46,244 nt of DNA, from NCBI GenBank assembly GCA_014190575.1, contig BJGQ01000017.1, positions 1 to 46,244 of the forward strand, in the 5' to 3' direction. Source of the DNA: Bacteroidota bacterium. Its GTDB lineage: Bacteria > Bacteroidota > Bacteroidia > Chitinophagales > UBA10324. The first letter of the stretch is position 1, and each line of letters opens with the position of its first letter. The notes beneath the pieces were generated by a model that saw nothing but the letters and a program-made list of their open reading frames with translations, was not told the origin of the DNA and searched no databases. The position numbers were made by a program, and so were the translations under genes. Shown piece after piece: positions 11,776-19,704 of the stretch.

Positions 11776-12678
11776 TCAAGGAGCTTTTTGAATTCGTTTT
11801 ATTTTTGAATCAAGTGTAAAAACCCTTGAAAGGTTAAACCCGAATTCAACATTTCCTTTTAACCATTGTCCTGTTGTTTCAGTAACAAATGCGCGTTCGG
11901 TCATTCCAGGGGCATTTGTAAAATGCAATTGAAAAACATGTCCGCCAGTTTCAATATCAAATCCAATTGATAATGGTCGTGTTGCCGTGACCGGCAAATC
12001 TCCGGAACGGAAATAATAATAATCGAAATTCAATGCAAGACGCTTTGTTAATTTTATTCTTCCACCGATTTCTGCAGCATATAAATCACTTTTATCGTGC
12101 GTGCTGTCCACTAAATTCCGATGAATTAAAATAGGACCTGCCTGTAAAGTAATTCGTTCTTTAAATTTTCTACCAATTATCACTTGATGATAATAATTCA
12201 AGCGGGATGAAAAATAATTTACACGGTCAGGATAATCCCACTTGGTTCCTATAACCGACATGCCGGCAATGTATTCAACTGTAACAGGCATTCGCTTCAA
12301 ACCTTTTGTTTGCCACAGCAAACGATACTTAACAAACGCATCAGCTTCTTTTCTGAAAGTGCTGCGACCAATTCCAATCATTAATCTGTTTGTTAATCCA
12401 TAATCTAAACCAATGCGCATGGATGCTTTGTCAAATCCCCAAGCTTCGTAACGACCATCGCTGAACATTCCAAAGCGATGCATAATTCTGAAATCAAGAA
12501 CTCCACCACCTACATGTTCCATTGAATGACTCATTAATACCCGTGTTGATTTAAACGAGTTAGTGATTCGTTCAACCTCAGGTTTGGCTTCCGAATCGAG
12601 TAATGATAATAAATCCTGAGACTTCGTAATCCCTGAAGAAAATAATAAAAACGATAGGAGTATTAATTTTCTAATCAT
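11776..12678 (-). CDS. DUF5777 family beta-barrel protein
   Basis: The 300-residue protein has a signal peptide ending near TKSQ. A porin-like series of amphipathic beta-strands follows, including EHVGGGVLDFRIMHRFG and YGLTNRLMIGIGRSTF. I recognise this as DUF5777, a Bacteroidota barrel family commonly adjacent to YceI and cytochrome genes. It is the last gene of the leftward redox cluster, 12 bp after the YceI gene. The function is unknown. The context suggests an outer membrane partner of the periplasmic YceI and haem proteins. Confidence 0.82.
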   Translation of the reverse strand: MIRKLILLSFLLFSSGITKSQDLLSLLDSEAKPEVERITNSFKSTRVLMSHSMEHVGGGVLDFRIMHRFGMFSDGRYEAWGFDKASMRIGLDYGLTNRLMIGIGRSTFRKEADAFVKYRLLWQTKGLKRMPVTVEYIAGMSVIGTKWDYPDRVNYFSSRLNYYHQVIIGRKFKERITLQAGPILIHRNLVDSTHDKSDLYAAEIGGRIKLTKRLALNFDYYYFRSGDLPVTATRPLSIGFDIETGGHVFQLHFTNAPGMTERAFVTETTGQWLKGNVEFGFNLSRVFTLDSKIKRIQKAP

Positions 12679-12690
12679 AAAATATACTTC

Positions 12691-13251
12691 TTATCCTTCG
12701 TAAGGTTTGTAATTAGAATTCACATCAATTTTAACACTGTTGTTAATCTTATTTTTTACGACTGATGGAATTTCAATGTTGTAATCAGAAATTAAAATAT
12801 TGAATGTTGAATTAGCGCTTATTGCACCAGTTTTAATTATAATTTTCCCTTTTGATGTTACATCTTTAGTAACACCATGAATGGTTAGTTTTCCAGTAAC
12901 AGTTACCGGGTATTCTCGGTCTTCAGTCCATTTCACATCAGCGAAATTGGTAATGGTTCCTTTGAAATTTGCTTTCGGAAATTTATCAGACTCCACATAA
13001 TTTTCGTTGAAGTGTTCTTGTAAAAGCGCTTTTTCAAATTCAAAAGCCTTCATTAAAACAGCGAACTCCATAGCACCTGTACTTATATCAAGCATGCTTA
13101 CCGCCTGATTATTTATTCCCTGAATTTTCTCTAATGGCGCATCAGATAAAAATGTAATGTTGGCTTCACGAGTGAAGTACTTGGTTGGCGTTGCTTTAAA
13201 CCCAAATGCAAAAATGCTTGTGGTTAAAATGGTTGCGATTAATGTTTTCAT
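12691..13251 (-). CDS. YceI family protein (first of two in cluster)
   Basis: The 186-residue protein has an N-terminal signal peptide (about 1-19) and the YceI lipocalin-like beta-barrel. YceI barrels bind long isoprenoid or fatty-amide ligands. Visible family features are ANITFLSDAPLEKIQG, MEFAVLMKAFEFEKALLQEH, NENYVESDKFPKANFKG and GKLTIHGVTKDV. It is related to the second YceI at 18864-19430, with the same motif order. It sits between the OB-fold gene (15 bp upstream) and DUF5777 (12 bp downstream). A periplasmic role tied to quinone or lipid handling is family-based inference. Confidence 0.92.
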   Translation of the reverse strand: MKTLIATILTTSIFAFGFKATPTKYFTREANITFLSDAPLEKIQGINNQAVSMLDISTGAMEFAVLMKAFEFEKALLQEHFNENYVESDKFPKANFKGTITNFADVKWTEDREYPVTVTGKLTIHGVTKDVTSKGKIIIKTGAISANSTFNILISDYNIEIPSVVKNKINNSVKIDVNSNYKPYEG

Positions 13252-13266
13252 AATGTTTGATTTCTT

Positions 13267-13692
13267 TTATTGTTTGATTTCGGGTTGCACTATTACACAC
13301 CGAGTTAACACTACATCCATTAACATGCCAGTACATATCCCTTTGATTGTAATGTTGCTGTCTTTCTCAACCTTCTGCACAGTTTCATCCGTTTTTTGCA
13401 AACTGCAACTCACACCGAACATTCCGTTTCCACCATCCAATAAAATAATAATTCCACTGGTGTCTTTTTTTATTTCAGCTACTTTTCCAGTTACCTGAAT
13501 TACCTGCATTCTATAAAGTGAATCCGAATGCATTTCGTTATCAGAATATGCATTGTATAAATCAACGGCTGAAATACTTACATCAGCTGTTAAATCCGCT
13601 GTTTTTGCATTTGTTCTGAAGTATTGATATAATCCATATCCAACTGCTGCTACAATTAATAGGAGAATAATAATTATAATTTTCTTTTTCAC
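13267..13692 (-). CDS. OB-fold (tRNA_anti-like) membrane-anchored protein
   Basis: The 141-residue protein begins at GTG (13690-13692) with KKKIIIIILLLIVAAVGYGL, a single N-terminal membrane anchor. The rest is an OB-fold of the tRNA_anti-like type: ISAVDLYNAYSDNE, VIQVTGKVAEI, GIIILLDGGNGMFGVSCSL and ITIKGICTGMLMDVVLTRC. Many Bacteroidota have such anchored OB-fold proteins of unknown function, and RNA binding is not implied. It lies 11 bp after the monohaem lipoprotein gene and 15 bp before YceI, inside the redox cluster. Confidence 0.82.
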   Translation of the reverse strand: MKKKIIIIILLLIVAAVGYGLYQYFRTNAKTADLTADVSISAVDLYNAYSDNEMHSDSLYRMQVIQVTGKVAEIKKDTSGIIILLDGGNGMFGVSCSLQKTDETVQKVEKDSNITIKGICTGMLMDVVLTRCVIVQPEIKQ

Positions 13693-13703
13693 TGAATGAA
13701 TAA

Positions 13704-14105
13704 TTAATTGTTAGGTGCGCCTGCATGAATCCATGCATTCAAATTAGCTATGTCACAATCCGAAAGTTTTGCTGCTCCCAATGGCATTGCATTATAACCT
13801 GCACTATGATTTATTGTTCCCATTAAAGTTCCGTTTTGCTGAGCGGCAAGCACATTTGAATAACCTTCAAGGCTTACACCGCCTGAATTTACTGCGGTAC
13901 TATGACAGGCATTGCAATTTGTTTGAATTATAGTAGAAACTTTTCCTGAATAAGTTGCCTTAGAAGTATCACAGCTAATTCCACTATCAATTGGTTTTGG
14001 ATATAATTCCTGATTCACATCATAATAACAAGATGAAAATAAAGATGAAAAGCTTAGTATAGATAAACTTATTAAGGAAAAATATTTTAGTGTTTTACAA
14101 ATCAT
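13704..14105 (-). CDS. monohaem c-type cytochrome lipoprotein
   Basis: This 133-residue protein has a lipobox cysteine at 26 (SLFSSC). It contains a single canonical haem c motif, CNACH (C64, C67, H68), with a likely axial methionine at M107 (YNAMPLG). It resembles the second half of the neighbouring 238-residue cytochrome: both have TYSG(K/T), a CN(A/G)CH motif, SGG(V/I), a MP(L/K)G motif and a C-terminal APNN. They are probably paralogues by duplication. It would carry electrons at the periplasmic face. There are 153 bp between it and the diheme gene, so it may have its own promoter. Confidence 0.88.
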   Translation of the reverse strand: MICKTLKYFSLISLSILSFSSLFSSCYYDVNQELYPKPIDSGISCDTSKATYSGKVSTIIQTNCNACHSTAVNSGGVSLEGYSNVLAAQQNGTLMGTINHSAGYNAMPLGAAKLSDCDIANLNAWIHAGAPNN

Positions 14106-14258
14106 GTTTAATACTGTTTCTGATTTTTAGTATGATTAATTTTTTCAGGGTGCTTAAATTTTTATCTCTTCAAAATTAATTCCGGTTGTATCAAATAATG
14201 CTAATGTAAATCATTAACTCTACAATGCAAAAACTACAACATTAGTTCGATGAAAAAA

Positions 14259-14975
14259 TTAATTATTTGGTGCCCATGCAATTTTCCAGATTCTGATTTC
14301 ATCAATCATGCAATTTGGAATCGGCTGACTTCCTTTTGGCATAAGAGGAACTCCATTAGCAGTAACAGAATTTGTTAAACTATCGCTGAGTGCCAATGAA
14401 CTTACTTTAGAATATAAATCCAAACGAATGCCGCCACTCTGCACATTTGAATTGTGGCATCCGTTACAATAGGTCTGCATCATTGGAGCAATTGTTCCGC
14501 TGTAAGTAACATTGGTAGTATCGCATAAAGCATCGCAGTGATTGTTATGGCAACCTTGTTGAATCCATAATTCAAGTAAAGCAATTTGATCAGTTGTTAA
14601 ACTTGCACTTCCGGGAGGCATTTCGCCATCTAAAATTGAGTTCATAATATTCCCGCTTGTCGGCTGGAAAGCATGAATTCCATGCGACATTATTGTTAAG
14701 TAAGAGGTTAATGTATAACCATCTTTATGTGAGGTTGCATTATGACAATTGGATTGCGCACAATTGGAAACGAAAATCGGTAATATCTGTGAATCAAAAT
14801 ATACTGAATCAGGGTCGCATGGAATTCCAACAACCGGTGGAGGATTATGTGATGTATCAATTGATGAGGTATCAATCAAATGATCATTTGTTACAAGGAA
14901 TGGATAATGCTTGCATGAAAAAATTCCCGCAAATAGTAAGCAAAAAACAAAAACCGAAATCAACTTAACTTTCAT
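14259..14975 (-). CDS. diheme c-type cytochrome lipoprotein
   Basis: The 238-residue lipoprotein (lipobox C21, AGIFSC) contains two cytochrome c-like repeats. The first has an unusual spaced haem site, C72-AQSN-C77-H78 (CX4CH), with a putative Met ligand at M119 (EMPPG). The second has a normal CNGCH (C170, C173, H174) with M212 (LMPKG). A further HC-rich patch (GCHNNHCDALC) links the repeats. This CX4CH form recurs in Bacteroidota cytochrome lipoproteins, where haem attachment has mostly not been tested. The gene lies 91 bp downstream of the LytTR regulator on the same strand. Confidence 0.86.
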   Translation of the reverse strand: MKVKLISVFVFCLLFAGIFSCKHYPFLVTNDHLIDTSSIDTSHNPPPVVGIPCDPDSVYFDSQILPIFVSNCAQSNCHNATSHKDGYTLTSYLTIMSHGIHAFQPTSGNIMNSILDGEMPPGSASLTTDQIALLELWIQQGCHNNHCDALCDTTNVTYSGTIAPMMQTYCNGCHNSNVQSGGIRLDLYSKVSSLALSDSLTNSVTANGVPLMPKGSQPIPNCMIDEIRIWKIAWAPNN

Positions 14976-15066
14976 CTGTTTTTTATTAGAATGTAAATGT
15001 GGTGGTTTGATTAAATTAAATAAAACATAAAATGATGAATGAGAAAAGGTTTATGTTGAGCAAGGA

Positions 15067-15846
15067 TTAATCGGATATTTTAAATGTGTCTGACATTCCA
15101 ATTAACCATTCTTTAAAATAGGGCGAGCGTTCAGTGCTTACAATGGTTTCGAAGGATGGAACCGGCTTTAAAATTATTTTCACTCTCGCTTTTGAATAGG
15201 CAATCATTTTTTCAATTGCTTTAAAATTCACAATTACCTGCCGGTTAATTCTGAAATAATTTTTTGGATCAATCATGTGATCAAGCTGATCCAAAGTATA
15301 ATCAATCGGATATCGCTGACTATCGAATGTATATAGATAGGTATATTTTTCTTCAGTATAGAAATAAGCAATGTTTTCAATATCAACCGTTTTTATTACA
15401 TCGGCATATCGAACCACAATTCTTTTTTGATATTCTTTTGTAACCAGATTTTTTAATAATAGCGCATAATCGAGATTGTCTTTTTTCGATTGCAATGAAT
15501 GGAATTTCTGCAAGCTATTTTCAAGACCTTCTTTTTTTATTGGTTTCAATAAATAATCAATACTGTTTACCTTAAAAGCATCAATTGCATATTGATTAAA
15601 AGCTGTAGTGAAAATTATAGGAGCTTTTATTTTAATCTCATGAAAAATATTGAAACTACTGCCATCAGCCAATTCAATATCCATAAATATTAAATCAGGT
15701 AAATTGTTTTCAGCAAACCATTTTACAGAATCTTTAACCGATTCCAAATGCATAACCAATTCAGCATCCGGTTCAACCTGTTTAATTAATTTAAACAAGC
15801 GCTGTGCAGCTGGTTTTTCATCTTCTATAATTACAATTTTAGTCAT
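15067..15846 (-). CDS. LytTR-family response regulator
   Basis: The 259-residue protein has a receiver domain with acidic pocket E8-D9, phosphoacceptor D56 (LIFMDIEL) and K101 (DYLLKPIKK). A LytTR DNA-binding domain (about 130-250) includes ENIAYFYTEEKYTYLYT and YFRINRQVIVNFKAIEKM. It is the partner of the histidine kinase encoded 87 bp upstream on the same strand. LytTR proteins bind paired short direct repeats upstream of targets. A plausible target is the adjacent cytochrome/YceI operon, but no clear binding repeat was identified by eye. Confidence 0.95.
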   Translation of the reverse strand: MTKIVIIEDEKPAAQRLFKLIKQVEPDAELVMHLESVKDSVKWFAENNLPDLIFMDIELADGSSFNIFHEIKIKAPIIFTTAFNQYAIDAFKVNSIDYLLKPIKKEGLENSLQKFHSLQSKKDNLDYALLLKNLVTKEYQKRIVVRYADVIKTVDIENIAYFYTEEKYTYLYTFDSQRYPIDYTLDQLDHMIDPKNYFRINRQVIVNFKAIEKMIAYSKARVKIILKPVPSFETIVSTERSPYFKEWLIGMSDTFKISD

Positions 15847-15933
15847 ATTGCAATAAGTTAATTCCTGAATTTTAATCGTTTAGCAAATTTATTCTGCGCC
15901 AAAGTAAATTATACTGATACATATCATTTCCAA

Positions 15934-18867
15934 TTATTTTTTATCGGCAAGTTTAAACTTAACAATGAAATGAGTTTCGGTTTTTTCCACTTCAATGGCA
16001 GGCAATCCTAACATCTGCATTCGCCGTGTAATGTTTTGTAATCCGGTACCTGTTGATGGGTCCTTGTTTAATTTAGGTTGTAGATTATTTTTTACTATGA
16101 AGAATTCATTTTCAAAGTACAATTCAATTATGAGTGGATTGGTGGTTGTAAGCGAATTATGTTTAATAGCATTTTCCACTAATATCTGTAAAGCAAGAGG
16201 GGGAATTAATAGTGATTGCGCCTGCACTTTTGAAACGCCGATGTTAATTTTTAAGGCAGATTCAAATCGCTGTTGTTGTAAATAAATATAGTCGTTAATA
16301 ATCTCTAATTCTTCTTCCAGTTTTATTAAATCTTTTTCGCGATGCACTAATATCTGTCTGAAAAAATCAGTTAGTTTTTCAATATATTCAATGGCTTTTG
16401 TTTTATCGTCGTCAATAATATTTGCGAGAGTATTAAAACTGTTAAAAAGAAAATGCGGATTCACTTGATTTTTTAAAGTTTCAAATTGAGAAGCCAGTTT
16501 TTCTTTTTCTAAACGCTGAACAAGGTTTACGCGTTGATCTCTTATTTTCAGAAATATCCATGTCAATGCAACCAATGCAATTATACTGAAAGTAATAAAC
16601 CACCATTGGCGATAAATAGGAAGAAGAATGGCGAATGAATAATTTATTTCATTGCTGTGTGAAAAATCGTTCGTTCGTGAACATCGAAGTCTGAATGTAT
16701 ATCGACCCGGTTTCATATCCGGAAATGCTGCGGTTCTATCGCGTGTGTTTATCCACTCACGATTTAATCCTTCCATTTTGTATTGAAAATTTACTTCGGA
16801 AGGATTACTGAACCAGATTCCCTGATAAGAAAACGCAAGATGGTTTTTGTTCCCAGAAATACTTGCATAACTACTTAAGTCAATCGGATCAAGAAAAGCT
16901 GTTGCCCGTTCAAAAGTCAAGAACGGAGTTTTTCTGAATTTATCTAATGTGGTATTTATTTTAATGAACTGGTTTCGGGTACCAATCCAAATTACACCAT
17001 CTGGCGATAATGAAGCTGTATTCAAATCTGCATCTACGGTTTCAATTCCTTCAGCTTCCTGAAACCAATTAAACGATTCGGAGTCAAGGTTAAAAATTGC
17101 AATTCCTTCAATGCAAACGATTATAATATTTCCAATGTTATCAGCACAAAGCCCGGTAATGTGCATACTGGGCAATCCATTTGACAAATCGTATCTGTAA
17201 AATTTTTCAATTTTCTTTTCATCTGCCTTGTATCTGTATAATCCGTTATCGGTTGAGGCGAACCACAATCCACCATTAATATCCTGTGTGATTGAAAAAA
17301 AAGTTTTTGCTTTTACACTGTCTTTTTCTCCGAACTGATGGAACCCATCTTTATCCATCATGCTTATTCCTTTTCCATCTTGCGCAAACCATACTCGGTT
17401 ATTTCTATCAAGCAAAACCTGATAAATAAAATTGTTATTCAATCCGTTTGTTGAATTGAAGTAATTTATTTTTATACCGCAATTAAGTTGCAATGCATCG
17501 TCTCCTAATTCAATATTTACAGCGCCAGATAATGTGGCTAACCAAAGGCTGCTCCGCTTCCCTGTAATTGATAATACACTTTGTTTGGTCAAATCTTTAT
17601 TATCACTAATGTGTATTGATACACCACTTTCAGCATCCAGTCGAAAGCAACCCTGATCAAAAGTGCCAATCCATATAAATCCAAAAGCATCCTGAAAAAT
17701 GGTAAGTATTTTATAAGGCGATTTTAAATTTGAAATTGAAAATGACTTTGATAGTTCAGTGCCGTCGGAAATAAAAGTGACACGATGCAATCCATTATCA
17801 TCAGAATACCACAGCCTTTTTTTATTATCAATTAAAGTAGCATGAATGTTTGAAATGGGGTTGTTATTTACTGTTTTTAAAAATTCAATTCTTTCACCGG
17901 GAGATTGTAATAAATGGTCTTTGCAAGCGATCCAGATGTTTCCTTCATCATCACGAAACAAGCATTGTACTGATGAATATTTAAAACCAGCAGCGTTCAA
18001 AAAATTTCTTGTACGCTTCTCACCTGAAAATTCATAGTCAATCAATCCGCTTTCATTTGTTCCGATCCAAACTTCGCGATCCAAAAGCAACATGGCATCA
18101 ATTGCACCTTTATTCCAGTTTTTAAATTCATCCGGTATTTCAATTTTATTACTGTCAGGATATAATTTTCCAATTCCATAGTTGTCGGTTCCAAACCATA
18201 AAAATCCATTCTTATCCCATATCAATCGCTTAATAATATTATCACTTAATCCTTCCTTCGTTGTATAATTTTTTACTTGTTTTTTTTCGTTCTTAAATGT
18301 GCATTGTGATATACCTACATCAGTTCCGGTCCATATCCTTCCCTTATTGTCTGCAACAATGCAATACACATAATTGTCAGTAAGTCCATCATCTTTATTA
18401 ATATTATAAAAGTGTTTTCCATTCCACACATACACGCCTTCGCCATAAGTTGAAAACCATATTTTGCCATCATTGTCTTCGGTAATTCCGGTGATAGCTT
18501 CCTTCGGCATTCCTTCCTCAATATCAAATGATTTAAGAGTGTCATTTTCAAAAAGCAGAATTGAACCTTTTTTTAATCCAACCCAAATTTTTCCATTCTT
18601 ATCGCAATGAAGCGAGGTAACATAAATTTCACCAATATTTTTTTTTGTTGGAATGATTTTAAAAGATGATCCATCATAATTGTATAAACCTTTGTTGGTA
18701 CCAAGCCACATTAATTTTTGCTGATCCTGGATTATCACCTGCACTTTTATATCGAGAACTGTTTTATCTATTTCAACTGGTCGCACATATGGGAATTGTG
18801 CCTTCAATTGTGAAGGGAAAAAACTGAATAATAAAATAATCAGATAATATTTAAATAATATTTTCAT
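15934..18867 (-). CDS. Reg_prop/Y_Y_Y sensor histidine kinase (LytS-like)
   Basis: The 977-residue kinase has a signal sequence (about 1-23) and a two-part periplasmic beta-propeller of Reg_prop repeats, about 30-640, with recurring IW(F/I)GT and G(R/K)IW motifs. A Y_Y_Y domain follows (about 665-740; VNFQYKMEGLNREWINTRD), then one membrane helix near 750-770. The cytoplasmic His_kinase module has phosphoacceptor H805 in NPHFLFNSFNTLANII and an ATP-binding N-box VENAIKHN near 900. No receiver or AraC domain is fused, so it acts through the LytTR regulator next door. Its start overlaps the stop of the upstream YceI gene in ATGA. Confidence 0.95.
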   Translation of the reverse strand: MKILFKYYLIILLFSFFPSQLKAQFPYVRPVEIDKTVLDIKVQVIIQDQQKLMWLGTNKGLYNYDGSSFKIIPTKKNIGEIYVTSLHCDKNGKIWVGLKKGSILLFENDTLKSFDIEEGMPKEAITGITEDNDGKIWFSTYGEGVYVWNGKHFYNINKDDGLTDNYVYCIVADNKGRIWTGTDVGISQCTFKNEKKQVKNYTTKEGLSDNIIKRLIWDKNGFLWFGTDNYGIGKLYPDSNKIEIPDEFKNWNKGAIDAMLLLDREVWIGTNESGLIDYEFSGEKRTRNFLNAAGFKYSSVQCLFRDDEGNIWIACKDHLLQSPGERIEFLKTVNNNPISNIHATLIDNKKRLWYSDDNGLHRVTFISDGTELSKSFSISNLKSPYKILTIFQDAFGFIWIGTFDQGCFRLDAESGVSIHISDNKDLTKQSVLSITGKRSSLWLATLSGAVNIELGDDALQLNCGIKINYFNSTNGLNNNFIYQVLLDRNNRVWFAQDGKGISMMDKDGFHQFGEKDSVKAKTFFSITQDINGGLWFASTDNGLYRYKADEKKIEKFYRYDLSNGLPSMHITGLCADNIGNIIIVCIEGIAIFNLDSESFNWFQEAEGIETVDADLNTASLSPDGVIWIGTRNQFIKINTTLDKFRKTPFLTFERATAFLDPIDLSSYASISGNKNHLAFSYQGIWFSNPSEVNFQYKMEGLNREWINTRDRTAAFPDMKPGRYTFRLRCSRTNDFSHSNEINYSFAILLPIYRQWWFITFSIIALVALTWIFLKIRDQRVNLVQRLEKEKLASQFETLKNQVNPHFLFNSFNTLANIIDDDKTKAIEYIEKLTDFFRQILVHREKDLIKLEEELEIINDYIYLQQQRFESALKINIGVSKVQAQSLLIPPLALQILVENAIKHNSLTTTNPLIIELYFENEFFIVKNNLQPKLNKDPSTGTGLQNITRRMQMLGLPAIEVEKTETHFIVKFKLADKK

Positions 18868-19430
18868 TCGGTTTTTTGGTGCATTGTAGCTTGAACATGA
18901 ATTTTTATTTCCGGTGAAATTTTATCAAAAACAATTTTTGGAATAGTAATGTCATGGTCGGCTAAAAAAACAGTGAAATCACTATTCACCTTTATCAAAT
19001 TGTTTTCAATTATCAATTCACATTTTATAATTCTCTCTTGTTCTACACCATGAATATTTAAAATTCCCTTAGCACGAATAATGTATGTACCTGATTTATT
19101 GAATATTATTTTCTCTATGATTTTACCAGTAAAAAGTGATCGCGGGTTTTTTTCACTCTCCACATAACTTTCATTAAAATGTTCGCGCTGCAATAAACTA
19201 TTAAACCCTTCAAATGAATTATTGGCTACATAAAATGCAAATTCCTGTGTAGTTGTATCCAACAATCCGTTTAATTTTTCTGATTTGGCGGTTACAGTTT
19301 CAAACGATGCTTCGGAAACAAAGGTGATTGTGCCCTCAGTAATTTTATAAATGGAACCTGAATTACTATATGCGAATAGCATTAGCGAACTGCTAATAAA
19401 AAATAAAAGAGCAAGTAATATTTTATTCAC
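18864..19430 (-). CDS. YceI family protein (second of two), leading the sensor operon
   Basis: The 188-residue protein starts at GTG (19428-19430), MNKILLALLFFISSSLMLFA, a signal peptide. A YceI barrel follows: GTITFVSEASFETVTAKSEK, EFAFYVANNSFEGFNSLLQ, EHFNESYVESEKNPRSLFTG and GILNIHGVEQERI. It is diverged from the other YceI in the cluster but keeps the motif order. The 4-bp overlap with the sensor kinase gene indicates coupled translation and raises the idea that its ligand state feeds the sensor. That link is inference. Confidence 0.9.
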   Translation of the reverse strand: MNKILLALLFFISSSLMLFAYSNSGSIYKITEGTITFVSEASFETVTAKSEKLNGLLDTTTQEFAFYVANNSFEGFNSLLQREHFNESYVESEKNPRSLFTGKIIEKIIFNKSGTYIIRAKGILNIHGVEQERIIKCELIIENNLIKVNSDFTVFLADHDITIPKIVFDKISPEIKIHVQATMHQKTE

Positions 19431-19550: not shown

Positions 19551-19555
19551 ATTCA

Positions 19556-19640
19556 ACTTTAGGGGTGTTTCGAACGAATTCGGAACTGAGAACATACTCT
19601 AAAACCTGATACGGGTAATGCCGGCGTAGGGAAAAGTTGA
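19556..19640 (+). ncRNA. TPP riboswitch (THI element)
   Basis: The conserved core of the thiamine-pyrophosphate aptamer is present in order: aggggtg at 19561, ctgagaacatactct at 19586-19600 and acctgatacgggtaatgccg at 19604-19623, followed by gcgtaggga. It lies between the operon promoter and thiS. Downstream, 19669-19683 can pair with 19690-19699, which covers the AGGG ribosome binding site of thiS. This suggests control at translation initiation. The aptamer is certain from sequence; the switching mechanism is inference. Confidence 0.95.
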
Positions 19641-19704
19641 TGAAAGAAATTATTTCTTTTATTAAAATCCTTAAAGCAGCATTATCATAAATGCTTAGGG
19701 AAAA

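Follow-up and report, generated by a model that had tools for sequence, protein, structure and literature searches.

A YceI-containing sensor cassette and a haem c–DUF5777 effector module as a candidate ligand-responsive redox system of the Bacteroidota envelope

What could bring together, in one run of genes, two YceI-fold proteins, a propeller sensor kinase with a LytTR response regulator, two haem c lipoproteins, an OB-fold protein and a predicted outer-membrane barrel? According to the ORF list and the Pfam scan, all eight consecutive leftward genes of the original prediction are present, with the families named for them, on the minus strand at positions 11776-19430 of the window, by which we mean the whole analyzed stretch of 46,244 nucleotides. 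They fall into two parts, a sensor cassette and an effector module.

The cassette consists of YceI_A (18864..19430, minus strand; GTG start; Pfam YceI, 29.6 bits), the sensor kinase (15934..18867, minus strand; propellers, Y_Y_Y and a LytS-type His_kinase domain, matched by Pfam Reg_prop, Y_Y_Y and His_kinase), and the response regulator (15067..15846, minus strand; Pfam Response_reg and LytTR, six-sequence alignment). The kinase and YceI_A genes share 4 nt, and 87 nt separate the kinase from the regulator. After a further 91 nt, the effector module starts with cyt2 (14259..14975, minus strand), a lipoprotein with two haem-c domains (CX4CH, CXXCH; PSCyt1, 28.7 bits), followed after 153 nt by cyt1 (13704..14105, minus strand), a lipoprotein with lipobox Cys26 and a single haem-c domain, the latter recognized by its conserved haem motif. 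The remaining genes encode OB, a membrane-anchored OB-fold protein of the tRNA_anti-like type with conserved cysteines (13267..13692, minus strand; PF12869, 87 bits), the second YceI protein, YceI_B (12691..13251, minus strand; Pfam YceI, 64.5 bits), and DUF5777, a predicted outer-membrane beta-barrel (11776..12678, minus strand; PF19089, 292 bits over the full model); by their coordinates, the gaps between cyt1, OB, YceI_B and DUF5777 are 11-15 nt each.

No minus-strand terminator-like sites were found in the intergenic gaps of the eight-gene run, a promoter scan gave 36 matches against 39.9 in shuffles, that is, no excess, and PADLOC on the locus yielded one weak match only, to the regulator. 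A TPP riboswitch (65.1 bits) lies at 19551-19649 on the plus strand, before thiamine genes divergent from YceI_A, and this stretch is strongly conserved across five aligned loci of the genus.

To see how far the cassette is conserved, a YceI_A profile derived from the six first-found cassettes was run over 298 genomes of the order, giving 46 matches of at least 184 bits; all matches outside the six-locus build set, chosen by the YceI_A score alone, form 40 test loci. YceI_A, the kinase and the LytTR regulator stand in this order and on the same strand in 39 of the 40 test loci, L127 with its missing kinase being the exception, and the full cassette is present in 43 of 46 loci with the build set included. 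The frames of YceI_A and the kinase overlap in 30 of the 43 kinase-bearing loci, with starts assigned by script. YceI_A, presumably periplasmic, clusters with the YceI proteins of the five other first-found cassettes (support 93/99) and separates from YceI_B of the window, the identity between the two being 34%. Outside the order, only G137 (180 bits) and G205 (167 bits) passed 1e-48 in the phylum sample, with no labelled kinase at their loci (L083 and L090). The regulator family was rejected as a marker of the cassette, since relatives scoring 265-315 bits are also present where an A-type YceI match is lacking, for example in genomes G443, G613 and G627. Two variants of the locus were seen in passing: in L061, L062 and L127, YceI_A adjoins the regulator with no kinase gene between them, and in L130, L154 and L158 the gene after the cassette regulator is very large (1764-1815 aa in the DNA fetched).

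The kinase has PDB relatives for its propeller part (4a2l, 3v9f) and its kinase part (6swj), an NPHFLFN H-box invariant in four of four aligned sequences, and a transmembrane helix seen by eye. It had been described as a hybrid sensor; this description does not hold, as a LytS-type kinase forms the end of the protein and the regulator is encoded separately, and the kinase is considered non-hybrid because Pfam matched no receiver or AraC domain in its 977 residues.

The effector module is widely conserved across the phylum, far above chance neighbourhood. DUF5777 is present in all 16 genomes of the searched family, in 251 of 298 genomes of the order sample and in 153 of 395 genomes of the phylum sample, and was found in none of the 14 control genomes. 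Its surroundings were compared in 61 loci, comprising the window, a second copy from its own genome and 59 of the 60 fetched loci (L110, its DUF5777 having no label, was left out of the 62); the loci were not drawn at random, 40 of them being mostly best-scoring ones picked for spread. On the same strand and within seven genes of DUF5777, a cytochrome of the main cluster is found in 46 of the 61 loci, YceI in 42, and OB in at least 17, the last count being a lower bound because ORFs of the fetched DNA came from a simple script (e.g., OB of L062 was missed at first). Of 46 clustered YceI genes in these loci, 34 sit immediately before DUF5777. The second DUF5777 locus of the same genome (L003:7949-9580, contig C7) has two one-haem lipoproteins directly before DUF5777 and neither YceI, nor OB, nor a sensor beside it, so that a cytochrome plus the DUF5777 barrel looks like the minimal core of the module. 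In G523 (C1:1307151-1308746), two DUF5777 matches lie in one open frame of 599 aa, perhaps a fused double barrel.

The residues expected to hold haem are nearly invariant. In cyt1, the haem motif (Cys64, Cys67, His68) and lipobox Cys26 are kept in 88 of 88 aligned relatives, and Met107 of the Met-Pro pair and Trp125 in 87 of 88 each; its matches to cytochrome families fall below the Pfam cut-offs. The order CX4CH, then CX2CH is seen in 51 of 60 cyt2 proteins, and the Met-Pro motifs M119/P120 and M212/P213 are kept in 50-53 of 54 aligned sequences. The module cytochromes combine a haem-attachment motif with a distal Met, as c-type cytochromes do; a PDB search with cyt2 found no relative. CX4CH in the first cyt2 domain is a non-canonical haem motif.

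Conserved residues also mark the other effector proteins. Cys96, Cys120 and Cys132 of OB are present in 50, 52 and 44 of 56 aligned relatives, respectively; its AlphaFold2 model has low confidence (pLDDT 50.5). The PDB relative of YceI_B is 5ixg. In DUF5777, His67, Lys117, Gln123, His247 and Arg285 are among the residues invariant in 35 aligned sequences, and two histidines, 67 and 247, are thus found in every aligned barrel. The Pfam entry calls DUF5777 a membrane-bound barrel; a PDB profile search found no relative of solved structure, and our own AlphaFold2 model of the barrel, made from two sequences, has a pLDDT of 30.

Genes near DUF5777 are diverse, and many are of redox type. The Pfam scan of representative neighbours identified a Rieske protein, a thiol peroxidase (AhpC/TSA), a cupredoxin, a molybdenum oxidoreductase, an Fe-S/NrfD protein, a multihaem cytochrome, a Reeler protein with a haem motif, Lipoprotein_15 repeats and, in one case, a DOMON match below the cut-off. 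The DUF5777–YceI pair at L091:5620-9950 is close to a molybdenum oxidoreductase with a dimerisation domain and to a haem protein. An ECF sigma cluster (L080 member scanned) lies near DUF5777 in L080, L086, L087, L090, L096, L106 and L115, and six of these seven loci also hold a protein of 436-538 aa, the scanned member of which has no Pfam match; the sigma factor is perhaps an alternative regulator of the same core in other lineages. Since other lineages have a different regulator near DUF5777, the effector core seems to be kept while its regulator varies.

Are the cassette and the module connected? In 21 of the 40 test loci (27 of 46 with the build set), at least one effector gene is found no more than three genes away from the cassette, downstream, upstream or divergent relative to it. 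The other 19 cassettes have no effector gene at this distance; among them, L122 and L149 are cut off by the end of the contig immediately behind the regulator, L133 and L151 carry the module a few genes further on, and in L128, L130 and L154 the same contig holds it at a distance of about 14-18 kb. DUF5777 occurs in 45 of 45 genomes with the cassette, against 251 of 298 overall, a comparison that ignores kinship and has a high background. The sensor cassette and the effector module are two conserved parts and not chance neighbours, and the original claim that the genes form one system is supported by the conserved neighbourhoods and by an operator-like repeat shared between cassette-linked and distant modules, through which the sensor and the cytochromes appear to be linked.

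This repeat is a 12-bp word present twice, with a spacing of 21 bp, at the same position of the regulator–cyt2 gap in five of five loci of the genus. In the window, the proposed operator (two 12-bp direct repeats with 21-bp spacing; 15034..15066, minus strand; assigned by genus conservation) starts at the base adjoining the regulator stop codon, about 91 bp ahead of cyt2. LytTR regulators are reported to bind two repeats of 9-11 nt with 11-13 nt between them (PMC4847170), and the 21-bp period fits this reported form of LytTR sites. Of the two gaps in which a regulator site had been predicted, 14976-15066 agrees with the position of the repeat, which would make it a candidate site; the genus alignment has no conserved repeat in the other, 14106-14258, and the prediction is not supported there.

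The 21-bp spacing also emerges when no motif is assumed. For every spacing from 12 to 39, we determined the best 12-bp self-match upstream of the modules. In linked regions (n = 26), the mean self-match is 10.52 at 21 bp, compared to 8.02-8.96 at the 27 other spacings; for unlinked modules of cassette genomes (n = 13; L170 and L180 were dropped from the 15 fetched, their upstream DNA being unusable), it is 10.27 at 21 bp, with the next best value, 9.77, at 32 bp; and the controls (n = 45) have a mean of 8.82 at 21 bp and no peak.

An EM search trained on the 21 linked regions outside the genus of the window recovered the half-site TCCCGGTTCAG. Its total was 429.5 at gap 21, compared to 223.6-304.9 at gaps 18-20 and 22-24 and to 202.5-217.0 on four shuffles, the numbers of random starts being uneven (120 at gap 21, 30 per other gap, 20 per shuffle). 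The resulting matrix scores at least 15 in 17 of the 21 training regions, L061, L062, L150 and L153 being below. Applied to held-out modules away from the cassette in cassette genomes, it reaches 15 before six of 16 independent modules, the other ten scoring lower; the raw count was eight of 18, reduced because the region of L178 is a repeat of that of L133, used in training, and L161 and L162 are 97% alike, and two of the six (L161 and L164) share one genus (g261). When the gap is set to any other value between 14 and 30, no more than one held-out module reaches the threshold. None of the 44 control modules reaches 15, the highest score being 6.3; 12 of the controls come from the same order and five from the same family, and they are cassette-less in the sense that the matches listed include none of A type at 184 bits for their genomes, with L083 and L090 holding YceI proteins of 180 and 167 bits and no labelled kinase. 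L071, which scored 16.5, had been included as a control and was removed because a kinase and a regulator are encoded in its genome, at the edge of a contig.

Ahead of YceI_A itself, sites scoring at least 17 were found in 10 of 46 loci, against one of 46 at any of eight other gaps, which suggests self-regulation of the cassette in a part of the group. This would not extend to the window, where the region upstream of YceI_A has no site (score −5.8).

Within the window, the proposed operator is supported mainly by conservation in the genus, since the outside-genus matrix gives it 10.7 and scores higher, 16.7, at its best place elsewhere in the 46 kb. The same matrix selects the same place, with low scores, in three of the four genus regions scored (the window, L069, L120); L066 was missed because a long gene call had pushed the start of the region too far upstream. 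A pattern of the genus sites finds the window site, with one mismatch, as the best place in its own genome; a second match, with three mismatches, is inside a cysN-like gene and was set aside. A separate half-site matrix was built from the genus sites, and its scores at those sites are circular.

Taken as a whole, the locus is best explained, in our opinion, as a ligand-responsive envelope redox system, in which a YceI co-sensor cassette induces an outer-membrane electron relay, and we place slightly more belief than doubt in this reading. YceI_A, made together with the kinase from overlapping genes, would bind, on the periplasmic side, a hydrophobic ligand that is probably an isoprenoid or a quinone, and act as a detachable co-sensor of the propeller kinase. 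The kinase would then phosphorylate the LytTR regulator, which would bind the two direct repeats 21 bp apart and turn on the effector module; in some relatives, the cassette would be under the same control. The effector proteins, that is, the haem c lipoproteins with predicted His/Met ligation, anchored OB, YceI_B and the barrel, may relay electrons at the outer membrane, where a lipid-soluble redox partner would be carried by YceI_B; the ultimate source or sink of the electrons may vary by lineage. Here we infer that the cytochromes reside at the outer membrane, what the ligand is and in which direction electrons flow. A general electron relay is favoured over one fixed enzyme because of the diversity of redox neighbours. 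The Cytochrom_C_asm genes of the genome speak for this reading; ResB, not found in the genome, speaks against it. More tentatively, and with doubt outweighing belief, we suggest a class of bacterial sensor in which a detachable YceI lipocalin serves the propeller kinase as its sensory subunit, reports on the periplasmic isoprenoid or quinone pool and directly induces an outer-membrane electron relay, this ligand being shared with the second YceI found there.

A quinone or lipid as the ligand and electron transfer at the envelope, as originally proposed, would agree with what is known of the protein families, and the ligand assignment has precedents. According to PMC9113575, YceI proteins are termed a bacterial lipocalin family, and structures with isoprenoid or ubiquinone-8 ligands have been reported for them. 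The same source describes BcnA–LcoA of Burkholderia, which resembles our locus in that a YceI protein is genetically tied to an envelope haem electron carrier: BcnA (YceI) and LcoA (cytochrome b561) limit lipid peroxidation, are genetically linked, and their mutants have more lipid peroxidation (PMC9113575). A special case of the redox system would be an antioxidant counterpart of BcnA–LcoA, in which an isoprenoid bound to YceI quenches lipid peroxyl radicals of the outer membrane, the haem-c lipoproteins recycle the isoprenoid, and the sensor detects oxidised lipid or quinone. The structure matched by YceI_B, 5ixg, is listed as BcnB in PMC9113575, and a peroxidase-type cluster (its one scanned member being AhpC/TSA) is found near DUF5777 in seven loci. 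However, neither the eight proteins nor the two scanned from the flanks matched b561, the locus having c-type lipoproteins instead and, additionally, OB, DUF5777 and a two-component system to which a further YceI belongs; moreover, the Rieske, molybdenum oxidoreductase, Fe-S/NrfD and multihaem partners point to general electron traffic, not to detoxification alone. We regard the antioxidant role as unlikely, if worth keeping in mind.

The frequent adjacency of YceI and DUF5777 could also be expected of a system for uptake or modification of a hydrophobic substrate, with DUF5777 as a porin, YceI proteins as carriers, cytochromes taking electrons from the oxidation, and the sensor detecting the substrate; indeed, a barrel, a lipid-carrier-type protein and a regulator are the layout of a substrate-induced uptake locus. 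Yet neither the clustered neighbours nor the examined modules include a constant catabolic enzyme or transporter, and we consider this explanation improbable.

Another function, maturation or storage of cytochromes by the module with OB acting as a haem chaperone of the CcmE type, would agree with the OB family match, the N-terminal hydrophobic anchor and the conserved cysteines, but seems very improbable: sequence searches with OB against Pfam, NCBIfam and the PDB revealed no CcmE, the one in the PDB giving chance-level matches only, OB is labelled in only 17 of the 61 loci (a lower bound), and the cytochrome assembly genes (Cytochrom_C_asm) of the genome lie away from the locus. That unrelated genes are consecutive by chance is hardly credible, given that 39 of 40 cassettes are intact, module order is kept across families and the 21-bp repeat also precedes modules distant from the cassette, even though 19 of 40 cassettes have no effector gene nearby and the repeat is missing at one module copy of G546 (L179) and at both modules of G629 and of G655.

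For the redox system that we prefer, each part resembles something known. The kinase and the regulator are similar to LytS/LytTR systems such as BtsS/BtsR and YpdA/YpdB in having a PF06580 kinase with the NPHFLFN H-box and an adjacent receiver–LytTR regulator, but the input of our sensor is a propeller region with a separate YceI partner; conserved motifs of LytTR regulators upstream of their targets are described in PMC5552118. A propeller region with Y_Y_Y is shared with the Bacteroides-type hybrid two-component systems (4a2l, 3v9f), whereas the kinase of the locus has no fused receiver or AraC domain and works, presumably, through the separate LytTR regulator. A parallel to the proposed co-sensor is provided by the co-component systems VtrA/VtrC and ToxR/ToxS, with a periplasmic lipocalin-type ligand binder whose gene often overlaps that of the membrane sensor; in VtrA/VtrC, where the genes overlap, the lipocalin-type subunit detects bile acid on behalf of the membrane regulator (PMC9214523). 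Here, the partner is a histidine kinase and not a ToxR-like membrane transcription factor, and YceI is a different barrel family with its gene upstream.

Among effector proteins, a YceI-like domain joined to haem c is known from Cbp2D of Cellvibrio (YceI-like X158 and c-type cytochrome X183), for which electron delivery outside the cell has been proposed; according to PMC12542752, Cbp2D is one large polysaccharide-binding protein, while our locus is a separate, regulated gene set. No multihaem cytochrome threading the barrel was found, the window cytochromes and nearly all their relatives having one or two haem sites. Porin–cytochrome conduits of the MtrAB type combine an outer-membrane barrel with haem c partners, as the locus may do; by comparison, the lipoproteins of the locus hold one or two haems and its barrel fold is a prediction.

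The protein kinds are all known, and their arrangement appears to be undescribed. In the open-licence literature, we found no described function of DUF5777, a name absent from every paper covered; a search for YceI combined with LytTR or histidine kinase had no YceI among the matches listed; and searches for YceI with cytochrome, Rieske, beta-barrel, lipocalin or Bacteroidota did not reveal this gene set in the titles and abstract starts of the matches listed.

YceI proteins are widespread and their role is debated, and, to our knowledge, the input of many propeller kinases is unknown. The locus joins YceI, DUF5777 and a propeller kinase in one regulated unit with a proposed operator, from which testable claims follow, namely, that YceI may be a sensor subunit and that DUF5777 may take part in a redox relay, and the defined promoter could serve as a reporter for finding the ligand.
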